A DNA stretch of 64,000 bases from Clostridiaceae bacterium. GTDB taxonomy: Bacteria > Bacillota > Clostridia > Oscillospirales > Acutalibacteraceae. Positions 12,113 through 15,471 of this stretch are shown in pieces (the stretch's first letter is position 1; every line of letters begins with the position of its first letter). The stretch is taken from assembly GCA_016287385.1 (NCBI GenBank), contig JAEEWM010000004.1, positions 124,001-188,000 of the forward strand, read 5' to 3'. The translations under genes and the position numbers were made by a program. The notes beneath the pieces were generated by a model. The model searched no databases. It had not been told where the DNA came from and saw nothing but the letters and a program-made list of their open reading frames with translations.

Positions 12113-14725
12113 ATGATTTGGCACAGTTCAGATAAGGAAGTTGTTTTAGCGGAGCTGTCGGTTGACGAAAACAGCGGTCTTGCAAACGGCGTCGCATACG
12201 AGCGGCTTGAAACCTACGGAAAAAACCAGGTTGCCGATGTAAAACCTATAAGCTTTATTAAACAGTTTCTGAATCAACTGAATAAAAAAACAGTCTACGC
12301 GTTAGCGATTATATCAGCGCTCAATATGATTATTTCACTGATTTATGACGAGCATGATTACTGTTTCCCGGTAATTGTTATTGCCCTGGTAGTAATAAAC
12401 GCGCTGCTTTGCGCATATCATCTGTATACTTGCGACCGCGCGGCTTATTTTCAGAAGAATGCTTCCGTGCCGACCTGTACGGTGATTCGCGAGGGCGTAA
12501 AGCGCAGTATACCTTCAAATGAGCTTGTTATAGGCGATATTATTATTCTCAGTGAAGGCGATTACATCAATGCGGACGCGCGGCTTATAGAAACCAACGG
12601 TTTTCGCTGTAACGAATTAGCGCTTACGGGTGAAATCATACCCGTTGAAAAAGACGCAAATCTTGTGCTTGACGACATGGTTCCGTGCGCCGGCAGAAAG
12701 AATATGGTCTTTTGCGGCTGTAACGTTACTCACGGCAGTGCAAAGGCCGTTGTCGTTGAAACAGGTGCAAACACCGAGATAAGCAAATCGTCGGCGCTGT
12801 ATTCAAAACCGGGCAACACTGTTTCCGGTATTGAAAGAAGTCTCGGGGCGATAACTCACATTGTGGGTATAGTTCTTGCGGTAGCGAGCGCTGTTATTTT
12901 CCTGCTGGGAATAATCCTCGGTATTTCTTCGGATACACATTTTGCCGCTGTTACGGTCAAAATGCTTCTTAACGCTACCGCGCTCGGTTTTGCCGCTTTC
13001 CCCGCTGTTATGCCCTACGTAACCGCTATCGTAACATCGCTCGGCGCTGCGAGATTTATTCGCAACGGCGTTATTATCAAGGATACAGCGACTATCGAAA
13101 AACTTGCCAAAACTACCGTTTTGTGCGCGGATAAAACCGGAGTTTTTACAAAAAATCACATGTATCTGAACTCTGTTTACAACGGCGAATCACTTGAATA
13201 CCCCGTCGGCGGCGTACTGAATCAGAAATGCGCGGTCGTTTTGCGGCTTGCCGTTGCCTGCTCTATGCTTGAAAATGATAATACCGAAGCGGCGATAGAA
13301 GAATCATGCGTCAAATATAACAATATGTCCAAGGCGGATATCGATAACGCTTATCCCCGCCTTAACAGCATACCGTTTGACGGCGAGCGTAAAATGATGA
13401 CGAGTATCAACATGATTGACGGTAAGCCGTTTGCGGTAGTCAAGGGCGCGCCTGAAACCGTACTCAGCAAATGTGCCGGCATTGACGCTGAAAAGATACA
13501 GAAGGTTTGTGACGAGCTTGCCGAAAAATCCCTTCGCCTTATTTGTATTGCCATAAAAGCGCTTGAAGAGATTCCGGCCAATCCGAACGCTCAGGAAATT
13601 GAATGTGATTTGAAATTTGCAGGAATTATTTGTCTTGAAGATCCGCCGCGTGCCGACGCCGCGGAAAGCATAGAGGCGTGCAAAAGTGCCGGCATCCGCG
13701 TTGTAATGATAACGGGTGATAACATTACGACCGCCTGCTCCGTTGCGAAGAATCTCGGTATAATTGATGACGACGCGCAAGCGATAACCGGTGCACAGCT
13801 TGAGGAGATTGACGATGACGAATTAAAGCAAATCGTACACGATTACTGTGTATTTGCCCGTATTTCGCCGGCGCAGAAACTCCGTATAGTTCAAGCGCTT
13901 AAAGATAACGGCGATATCGTGACAGTTACCGGCAACGGTCTTGACGACGCGGATGTACTCTCTGTTTCAGACGTTGGTTTCGCCATCGGCGCCGACGGTA
14001 ACGACGTAGCCCGCGGAAACGCCGACGCCATTATCAAAAAGAACAGTTTTTCGGCTGTTGTAAGCGTCTTTAAGGAGTGCCACGGTCTTTTTGAAAACAT
14101 CAAAAAAACAGCTCATTATCTTATCAGTATCTGCACGGCGATTATGCTTATTTATCTGCCGGTCCTTCTGATATTCAGGACTCCTCCCCTCTCCGCCGTT
14201 CAGCTTTTATGGATAAATCTGCTTGCAAACGCCGTACCCGTAATGTCGCTTGCGACAAAACCTGCTGACAGTAAAACAGCTATCCCCACGGAGAAACTTT
14301 TAAGAGGGCGTCTTTTTGATTTGAACACCGTAATCAGTATTATTATTGAGTCGGTTACACTGTCTGTCTGCTGTATTGCGGCGTTTGCCATCGGAAAATC
14401 GACCGGTATTTCGGTCGGCTGTACTATGGCGTTTTTAACGGCCTCGTTTGCTTTCGTGGTACATTCATTTAACCTTTGTTCTAACCGCTCGATTATCTTT
14501 ATACGTTATAAAAACAGCGAATTTATGGTAATTACATCAGCGGTTGCCGTATTTGTAAGCGCTTTTCTGTGTCTTACTCCGGCGGGCAGAATACTTGGAC
14601 TTTCCTGCCTGTCATTCGGACAGGTTATGATCTGCGCGGGTCTTTCTTTGATAGCAGTACCAGTTTTTGAAGTAATTAAGCTGTTCAATTCAGGCGTATT
14701 GAACAGTTCAAAATCAGGTGTATAA
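12113..14725 (+). CDS. Divergent P2A-like P-type ATPase with substituted ion-binding and hinge residues
   Basis: 870 residues with the full P-type plan: N-terminal domain, M1-M2, actuator (TGE 172-174), M3-M4, phosphorylation site Asp340, nucleotide domain (KGAPE 444-448), DPPR 510-513, TGDN 534-537, hinge at 606-612 and a six-helix C-terminal bundle. It aligns without gaps to SERCA over M4-P and M5-M6, yet key residues differ. PEGL becomes PAVM (297-300), DKTGT becomes DKTGV, and TGDGxND becomes TGNGLDD (Asn608). The M5 ligands Asn and Glu become Cys674 and Ile677, and the M6 Thr and Asp become Ala705 and Asn706. It is therefore unlikely to be an ordinary Ca2+ pump. It follows glyA by 37 bases and abuts the next gene. 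Confidence 0.85.
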   Translation: MIWHSSDKEVVLAELSVDENSGLANGVAYERLETYGKNQVADVKPISFIKQFLNQLNKKTVYALAIISALNMIISLIYDEHDYCFPVIVIALVVINALLCAYHLYTCDRAAYFQKNASVPTCTVIREGVKRSIPSNELVIGDIIILSEGDYINADARLIETNGFRCNELALTGEIIPVEKDANLVLDDMVPCAGRKNMVFCGCNVTHGSAKAVVVETGANTEISKSSALYSKPGNTVSGIERSLGAITHIVGIVLAVASAVIFLLGIILGISSDTHFAAVTVKMLLNATALGFAAFPAVMPYVTAIVTSLGAARFIRNGVIIKDTATIEKLAKTTVLCADKTGVFTKNHMYLNSVYNGESLEYPVGGVLNQKCAVVLRLAVACSMLENDNTEAAIEESCVKYNNMSKADIDNAYPRLNSIPFDGERKMMTSINMIDGKPFAVVKGAPETVLSKCAGIDAEKIQKVCDELAEKSLRLICIAIKALEEIPANPNAQEIECDLKFAGIICLEDPPRADAAESIEACKSAGIRVVMITGDNITTACSVAKNLGIIDDDAQAITGAQLEEIDDDELKQIVHDYCVFARISPAQKLRIVQALKDNGDIVTVTGNGLDDADVLSVSDVGFAIGADGNDVARGNADAIIKKNSFSAVVSVFKECHGLFENIKKTAHYLISICTAIMLIYLPVLLIFRTPPLSAVQLLWINLLANAVPVMSLATKPADSKTAIPTEKLLRGRLFDLNTVISIIIESVTLSVCCIAAFAIGKSTGISVGCTMAFLTASFAFVVHSFNLCSNRSIIFIRYKNSEFMVITSAVAVFVSAFLCLTPAGRILGLSCLSFGQVMICAGLSLIAVPVFEVIKLFNSGVLNSSKSGV

Positions 14726-14727
14726 TG

Positions 14728-15471
14728 ATGTCTGAAAAAAAGAAAAACGTCAGCGACACGATCAGTCAGCAGCGCAAGGCACGCGAGGAGTTTTTGGAGC
14801 TTAAGCGTATGCAAAGCGGCGAAATCGACGCTCCGCCGCCTCCGAGCGCAGAAGCAAAATTACCGCAAACCGCGGAGGAAAAAGCAAAAAACTTCTGGTA
14901 TTATTACCGCTGGCCCGTTATAGCTGTTATCGCCATTGCGATAGTTGTCGCGATATGTGTTAAACAATGTGTTTCAAAGCCGGATTATGACCTTCGTATC
15001 GTTTTGTATACATCTTCTCCGGTAAGCGATGATGATTGCGACAGAATGGCGGAATACTTCAAGCAATTCTGTGAAGACGTAAACGACAACGGCAAGGTTC
15101 AGGTTCAGGTGATAAACTGTTCATACAGTGAAACCGGCAATCGCAGTGTTGTACTTGCCAACAATACCAAAGTGCAGTCAATTATCGCCTCCGAGTATGA
15201 TGTACTTCTCTATATAACCGATGAGACGACGCGGAAATATCTTAACTCGGTTTCGGATTCAGGCGAATTACTTGAGAAGAAGTACACGGTAGCGCTGGGC
15301 GACGATTTTTATGAGCGGTGTGAGGGCGACGGCGACGATATTTTCAAGATACCCGAGAATTTATCGGTTTCACGCCGCGTAATTTACGGGACGACGCTGG
15401 AAAAGAATAAAAAGGCTGTTAAGTATTATAAATCGGCCGGCGAAATGCTTGACAGACTGCAAAGCCGATAA
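14728..15471 (+). CDS. Hypothetical single-pass membrane protein
   Basis: 247 residues that I do not recognise. A charged N-terminal cytosolic part with a probable helix (REEFLELKRMQSG) and a proline run leads to one membrane helix (WPVIAVIAIAIVVAICV, about residues 68-84). An external domain of about 160 residues follows, beginning DYDLRIVLYTSS. Two ATGs stand in tandem; the one at 14728 has AGGTG at 7 bases, while the one at 14725 overlaps the ATPase stop. Coupling to the ATPase suggests a partner or sensor role, which is only inference. Confidence 0.75.
   Translation: MSEKKKNVSDTISQQRKAREEFLELKRMQSGEIDAPPPPSAEAKLPQTAEEKAKNFWYYYRWPVIAVIAIAIVVAICVKQCVSKPDYDLRIVLYTSSPVSDDDCDRMAEYFKQFCEDVNDNGKVQVQVINCSYSETGNRSVVLANNTKVQSIIASEYDVLLYITDETTRKYLNSVSDSGELLEKKYTVALGDDFYERCEGDGDDIFKIPENLSVSRRVIYGTTLEKNKKAVKYYKSAGEMLDRLQSR

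Follow-up and report, generated by a model that had tools for sequence, protein, structure and literature searches.

A P2A-like ATPase from a Clostridiaceae bacterium that keeps its phosphorylation site and has lost the classical calcium ligands

A 64,000-nucleotide stretch from a Clostridiaceae bacterium (contig JAEEWM010000004.1, positions 124,001 to 188,000; the whole stretch is called the window here) encodes a P2A-like P-type ATPase that has kept its site of phosphorylation and lost the classical ion ligands, as a first-pass annotation made from the letters alone had noticed and as our analysis confirms. In P-type ATPases, ATP chemistry is tightly coupled to transport, and natural uncoupling has, to our knowledge, rarely been described. 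Here the ATP-handling head is kept and the ion site is gone, which suggests a pump becoming something that does not pump calcium. The distribution of changes on a tree of genus orthologues shows that the catalytic motifs were remodelled first and that the ion site was lost later, in the lineage of the window protein.

Class membership and the ion site

The gene in question is the following.

12113 to 14725 (stop codon included), + strand: P2A-like P-type ATPase of 870 amino acids, defined by its open reading frame (ORF), its Pfam domains and its alignment to structural relatives

The ORF starts with ATG, contains no interior stop and is intact in frame. Its product matches the Pfam domains E1-E2_ATPase, Cation_ATPase_N, Cation_ATPase, Hydrolase and Cation_ATPase_C, all five above cut-off. 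The nearest relatives with a solved structure are entries for LMCA1 (E 3e-104; 29% identity over nearly the whole length), and the alignment with LMCA1 has no gaps from membrane helix 4 (M4) to the P loop or over M5-M6, in agreement with the gapless fit originally claimed for M4 to the P domain and for M5-M6. Among NCBIfam models, the protein passes the general P-type superfamily model TIGR01494 (207.2 versus 62.3 bits) and scores highest with a P2A model. It falls below the Ca2+-ATPase equivalog cut-offs of TIGR01522 (P2A; 372.5 of 798.3 bits), TIGR01116 (P2A; 304.7 of 703.4) and TIGR01517 (274.2 of 507.05). It does not belong to P5B, having FPAVMP instead of PPALP in M4 and 211.1 of 618.25 bits with TIGR01657, nor to P6, which combines PEGL in M4 with a replaced M6 Asp; PEGL is absent here. 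In a quick tree built from P2A proteins only, the window protein is nested among the P2A proteins of its own bacterial family. The Pfam matches, the place in this tree and the 870-residue frame bear out the earlier description of a P2A-like ATPase with an unbroken reading frame.

Three segments carry the classical ion site. SERCA residue numbers serve below as column labels; the columns themselves come from our alignments.

13001 to 13015, + strand: M4 motif PAVMP (residues 297-301), replacing PEGLP, with Ala298 at the place of Glu309 (alignments)
14132 to 14143, + strand: M5 residues Cys674 to Ile677, the two ends of which align with Asn768 and Glu771 (alignments)
14216 to 14230, + strand: M6 motif NLLAN (residues 702-706), replacing NLVTD (alignments)

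Where a P2A pump has E309, N768, E771, N796, T799 and D800, the window protein has A298, C674, I677, N702, A705 and N706, so that Asn702 is the single classical ligand of the six that is kept. Each of these residues is as the first-pass annotation gave it. The same annotation had raised the alternative that acidic ligands sit elsewhere in M4-M6. We looked for them and found none: the M4, M5 and M6 cores, with limits that we set ourselves, hold 0 Asp or Glu in the window protein and 4-7 in 38 canonical P2A proteins. Misalignment hiding acidic ligands is ruled out by this count. The alignments support the conclusion that the classical Ca2+ site of this protein has been lost.

A scan of genome contigs for relatives returned 6 loci, the nearest encoding a protein 79% identical to ours on JAFZIW010000158.1, a water-buffalo reticulum metagenome assembly; this sister protein was also obtained from genome G336. 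Its six ligand positions read A, S, V, N, L and N, and its hinge is identical to that of the window protein. Of the five replaced places, two carry one and the same residue in both sisters (Ala for E309, Asn for D800), and the remaining three vary between them (C/S, I/V and A/L). An intact ORF, together with a sister in a separate assembly that bears equal losses, rules out an assembly error or frameshift and makes chance or artefact very unlikely. The sister also contradicts the alternative, raised in the first-pass annotation, of an artefact among relatives that all keep PEGL and TGDGxND.

Catalytic motifs and the order of events in the genus

The headpiece motifs are listed here, with their conservation in orthologues from the genus.

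12626 to 12634, + strand: A-domain TGE (T172-E174), followed by Ile175; Glu183 is present in 28, and Ser184 in 3, of the 61 genus orthologues with letters there
13130 to 13144, + strand: DKTGV (340-344) with the phospho-acceptor Asp340; Asp in 61/62 genus orthologues, and Val, Ile or Leu for T355 in 61/62
13442 to 13456, + strand: N-domain KGAPE (444-448); Lys in 62/62 genus orthologues
13712 to 13723, + strand: TGDN (534-537); T, G and D each in 62/62 genus orthologues
13928 to 13954, + strand: hinge TGNGLDDAD (606-614), replacing TGDGVNDAP (alignments)

The phospho-acceptor Asp of DKTG (D351) is thus present as D340, and TGE, KGAPE, DPPR and TGDN are retained. Lys444 of KGAPE is presumably the ATP-binding residue. 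T355 is replaced by V344 and D703 by N608, and the canonical hinge TGDGxNDxP is absent. After TGE, Ile175 stands where the aligned canonical proteins have Ser. Apart from Ile175, these residues, kept and replaced, are those of the first-pass annotation. DKTGV and the altered hinge are not peculiar to this protein: T355 is replaced in 61/62 orthologues of the genus and N706 in 58/62. We take Val or Ile at the place of T355 to fit HAD motif I.

The same annotation described the hinge Asp as lost. Asp703 is indeed replaced; its acid function has perhaps been shifted, since hinge N706 has turned into Asp (D611) next to the kept D707 (D612), a gain beside the loss. In the excerpts we drew on, HAD motif IV takes the forms DD, GDxxxD or GDxxxxD (PMC12715507), and its acids bind the metal (PMC12715507; PMC7822558). 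D611-D612 corresponds to the DD signature as a sequence match only. Given an acid three residues past N608 and this known signature, the missing hinge Asp need not mean that Mg2+ chemistry is lost; it may be a shifted acid.

To place these changes, we compared the protein with samples at three ranks. The genus sample comprised 70 genomes, 67 with a match at 1e-30; 64 have the orthologue, 17 a canonical P2A paralogue (including a weaker match in G359 that is an end fragment of such a paralogue, 81% identical to L115), 14 have both and 50 the orthologue alone. Sixty-two orthologues, the window protein included, were aligned with 16 long or nearly full-length paralogues, 26 family proteins, the distant L011 and LMCA1; orthologue fragments of G311 and G353 stand outside the alignment, and most of the sequences come from genomes that are partly incomplete. 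The family sample held 300 genomes, of which 271 matched at 1e-50, and loci were taken from the best 30 matches, so that the 26 family proteins are those most like the query. In the order sample (394 genomes, cut-off 1e-165), matches came from four genomes: one from elsewhere in the family and three, counting that of the window itself, from its genus. The search for close relatives that the first-pass annotation proposed as a check thus produced the 79% sister and orthologues throughout the genus.

Conservation of the headpiece is strict at many positions: K352, T353, G354, T357, K515, R560, T625, G626, D627, R678, K684 and D707 are each found in 62/62 orthologues. Other positions are replaced in most of them, with T355 kept in 1, N706 in 4 and P709 in none (Asp or Glu in 55); D703 is kept in 44/62. 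The 16 canonical paralogues are canonical at all the catalytic positions surveyed. Of the orthologues, 59/62 carry GDxxxD or an acidic pair at 706-707, 60/62 are acidic at two or all three of the hinge positions 703, 706 and 707, and 60/61 are acidic at position 183 or 184. Orthologues without an acid at 703 have one at 706 in 15 of 17 cases, and those without one at 183 have one at 184 in 17 of 18. Across the genus, then, these sequences look as though catalytic acids have been rearranged more than decayed. Strict compensation was not established (3 and 5 independent comparisons; sign test not significant).

Ion ligands follow a different pattern. E309 is retained in 56/62 orthologues, N768 in 58/61, E771 in 56/61, N796 in 59/61, T799 in 55/61 and D800 in 59/61. 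All six are present in 51/62; the other 11 include one fragment without M5-M6 and one protein in which only T799 is changed, to Ser. Loss of five ligands was seen in the window protein and its 79% sister only. As to whether the substitutions are conserved across relatives, the hinge and T355 changes are genus-wide and full ligand loss is shared with the sister alone. Among individual orthologues, L076 (G330) has Asn for the phospho-acceptor Asp (NKTG) despite intact ligands throughout, and the close orthologues L068 and L071 (G318 and G333) have Lys for the M6 Asn796, each on a branch of its own that is fast in M4-M6.

A tree was inferred with IQ-TREE (LG+G4, short search, 106 rows, motif columns excluded, support by the Shimodaira-Hasegawa-like approximate likelihood ratio test, SH-aLRT, only); it contains P2A proteins and no P6 protein. 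The 62 orthologues form one clade (SH-aLRT 100), in which the window protein and its sister pair (100) inside a seven-member group (100). At D703 none of these seven has an acid (six carry Asn and one Gly), and at 706 each has Asp. The five other members of this subclade, 56-60% identical, have the altered hinge and keep all six ligands, which indicates that the hinge change preceded the ligand loss; the two are separate events. A second group, of nine orthologues, has also lost the acid at 703 (Asn or Ser instead), with Glu at 706 in eight. Proteins of the genus can thus be ranged in a series that starts with those whose catalytic site is remodelled and whose Ca2+ ligands are all in place, and ends with two that have lost nearly the whole ion site. 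Changes of acidic ligands require at least seven steps on the tree.

The nearest neighbours of the clade, L016, L028, L030, L035 and L039 from three other genera, also have altered hinge or TGE motifs, and L028 and L039 have lost ligands as well; L039 sits on a long branch, and the program warned that its grouping with L030 and L035 might be spurious. These proteins possibly underwent the same or a parallel remodelling. Three further loci, L132, L133 and L134, weaker matches in the genus genomes G312, G302 and G339, encode more distant P-type ATPases that share 25-29% identity with the P2A proteins and have DKTGTIT and, in M4, IPEGLYLL; by this M4 motif they are possibly P6-like.

Selection on headpiece and membrane helices, and competing explanations

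To compare rates between parts of the protein, we fixed the topology, left motif columns out and fitted branch lengths separately for the headpiece and M4-M6 (100 rows; the fragments L092, L096, L097, L098, L099 and L116 were excluded). The test went through stages: motif columns in, then without them for 7 branches picked after seeing the data, then for the 13 usable ligand-change branches. Over 167 branches above the length cut-off, the median M4-M6/headpiece ratio is 0.95. The sister branch reaches 5.11, the stem of the pair 3.53 and the window branch 2.60 (ranks 2, 6 and 11 of 167), and the pooled ratio is 3.74, compared to 1.02 on branches outside the 14 tied to ligand change. For the 13 branches, the shift is significant (Mann-Whitney p 1e-4); as branches were taken as independent, the P values of the rate test are too small. 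The other membrane helices lean the same way (window 5.07, sister 2.18, stem 2.53; median 1.56), and M4-M6 is also fast on L028 (3.18) and L068 (3.80).

Ratios of nonsynonymous to synonymous change (omega; NG86) give a similar picture. Between the window protein and its sister, omega comes to 0.032 for the headpiece and to 0.126 for M4-M6, at synonymous divergences (dS) of 2.16 and 1.64. Ligand-intact pairs have 0.028-0.072 in the headpiece (six pairs) and 0.030-0.055 in M4-M6 (five pairs, the sixth being saturated); L068 versus L071 gives 0.034 and 0.103. The membrane part is relaxed, not free, and the headpiece is constrained. The test of dN/dS proposed in the first-pass annotation thus indicates purifying selection, with the headpiece value of the window pair given above.

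The absent Ca2+ site, the kept phosphorylation site and this purifying selection make the original shortlist of a pseudo-pump, a sensor or a pump with another substrate a fair one. We consider it about an even call that the protein is a P2A ATPase, inherited vertically, which no longer transports Ca2+ and whose cytoplasmic headpiece still works. In the common ancestor of the genus orthologues, T355 would have become Val or Ile, N706 been lost, P709 turned into Asp or Glu and the TGE and hinge acids been rearranged, with the Ca2+ site kept. The window lineage would next have gone from a GDxxxD-type to a DD-type hinge, and at a later step five of the six ion ligands in M4, M5 and M6 would have given way to other residues, never to an acid. 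ATP binding by the headpiece probably persists, and a phospho-enzyme may still arise at Asp340. ATP or phosphorylation would then switch the shape of the protein without moving Ca2+, and the output may be regulatory or act through a partner. Ca2+ export could pass to a Na/Ca exchanger-family protein (PF01699), which is encoded in all 7 subclade genomes including that of the window (G000:C26:87190-88134), so that another Ca2+ exporter may be at hand. As the end of the genus-wide series, we tentatively propose, with rather less confidence than in the preceding statement, that the ion pump has become a non-transporting, ATP-dependent switch whose headpiece cycles or locks through ATP, Asp340 and the acid-shifted TGNGLDD site, and whose membrane part serves as anchor or output.

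Several observations weigh against the reading of a kept headpiece without Ca2+ transport. The ligand-change branches L074 (0.67), L087 (0.87) and L039 (1.12) show no fast M4-M6, and the 13 such branches are spread over ranks 2 to 114 of 167. Among the ten fastest branches, four belong to the ligand-change set and six, all inner branches, do not; the fastest of all (5.75, short) leads to 12 proteins, two of which have changed ligands. The P domain takes a larger share of headpiece change on the stem (1.54) and the sister branch (1.61) than overall (0.95). With dS of 1.6-2.9 for the window pair, omega values are rough, and the M4-M6 omega of 0.126, which falls well short of 1, means that the membrane part remains under constraint. 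The idea of an acid shift depends on few independent events, with the non-significant sign test noted above. Finally, no neighbour gene common to all genus groups was found in the flanking stretches compared.

A working pump for another substrate, with a neutral or hydrophobic path for a cation, polyamine, lipid or organic molecule and a modified active cycle, strikes us as unlikely, if well worth weighing. The constrained headpiece and the hinge and TGE acids, nearly always kept nearby, fit such a pump, and the outline of PAVMP resembles PPALP, the neutral M4 motif of P5B in the part of PMC10654040 consulted. However, the sisters differ at three of the five replaced places and M4-M6 evolves faster, the reverse of what a selected new binding site would show, and a different substrate is therefore less favoured. 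With two sequences only, a switch of substrate followed by stasis could still have occurred.

We regard it as quite improbable that the protein still pumps Ca2+ or another cation by means of unusual ligands (oxygens of the main chain, waters, Asn702 and Asn706), at low affinity or with its coupling altered. Asn702 is indeed kept, as is an amide at 706, and LMCA1, in the excerpt of PMC11977196 used, holds Ca2+ mainly via Asn716 in one state; against this stand M4-M6 cores without any acid.

Early decay, in which an exchanger does the work, the pump is dispensable and the gene is intact through recency, seems to us improbable. The PF01699 exchanger is present in all 7 subclade genomes, acidic-ligand changes recur on the tree, and 2/62 orthologues carry interior stops: L088 and L097 (G339 and G345), at residues 190 and 392 of the translated stretch. 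However, both come from incomplete genomes (64% and 79% complete), both sisters are intact at dS of about 2, their headpiece omega lies inside the ligand-intact range, and the orthologue is present in 64/70 genomes.

In the genus as a whole, the exchanger occurs in 32/70 genomes, in 1/17 with a canonical P2A versus 31/53 without one (Fisher p 0.00015), an avoidance that is not significant after allowing for the tree. It is commoner where D703 is lost (12/17 versus 18/45, uncorrected for kinship) and does not track the loss of E183 (16/33 versus 13/28). In G333 (98% complete), neither a canonical P2A nor a PF01699 exchanger was found.

Two other P-type ATPases in the window genome, presumably P1B-like by their CPC motifs, keep TGES, DKTGT and GDGINDAP, and these canonical motifs rule out a genome-wide oddity. 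A second P2A was searched for in the same genome and not found; relaxation owing to a canonical copy there is likewise ruled out.

Neighbouring genes and comparison with known systems

Upstream of the ATPase gene lie genes read as adenylosuccinate lyase and serine hydroxymethyltransferase. Downstream come the ORF listed here, a GreA/GreB gene and a class II (D, K, N) tRNA synthetase gene.

14725 to 15471, + strand: ORF of 248 amino acids with no Pfam match, whose start codon shares one base with the stop codon of the ATPase gene (TAATG)

A similar ORF stands beside the ATPase in the six other subclade members and is absent from the remaining 40 of the 46 flanking stretches tabulated (flanks only). 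Its product is a possible partner of the ATPase, within the subclade only, and would be a candidate for conveying the output of the proposed switch. In 36 wide stretches, that of the window included, the ATPase is preceded in 20 by two genes, which we take to encode a YqeG-like HAD protein and one like endonuclease IV; in the rest it follows purB, glyA or other genes.

Across some sixty orthologues of one genus, catalytic motifs and ion ligands have changed at different times, and one can therefore ask which parts of the cycle serve what. Should the headpiece function in the absence of an ion site, the window protein would be a bacterial pseudo-pump. In a full-text literature search that left most subscription journals outside its coverage, we found no paper on a P-type ATPase as pseudo-ATPase or pseudoenzyme, and nothing usable on SERCA hinge mutants.

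Partial precedents can be named. The consulted part of PMC10654040 describes the P2A, P5B and P6 families, asks about eukaryotic P1B pumps as transceptors, and presents the P6 ATPase CtpE of M. tuberculosis as a Ca2+-transport ATPase with a replaced M6 Asp. Unlike the window protein, which is placed among P2A proteins in a tree without P6, P6 ATPases retain the M4 motif PEGL. For CATP-1 of C. elegans, a pump-independent role was proposed, and a later paper (PMC11631496), in the portion used here, found pump activity to matter in the assay used there. CATP-1 is an animal Na,K-type protein, unlike ours. The bacterial P2A Ca2+-ATPase LMCA1 (lmo0841; PDB 6zhf and others) is alike in domain order, DKTG, KG(A/G)P and TGD. 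It differs in having a Glu/Asn/Asp Ca2+ site (an excerpt of PMC11977196 names Glu292, Asn716 and Asp334), TGES, DKTGT and TGDGVNDAP, which the window protein lacks apart from TGE; LMCA1 itself is without E771 and T799 (Ala and Asn). Closest are the 61 other genus orthologues, which share the change of T355 to Val or Ile, the altered hinge and the conserved headpiece, and differ from the window protein in the ion site, 51/62 keeping all six ligands.

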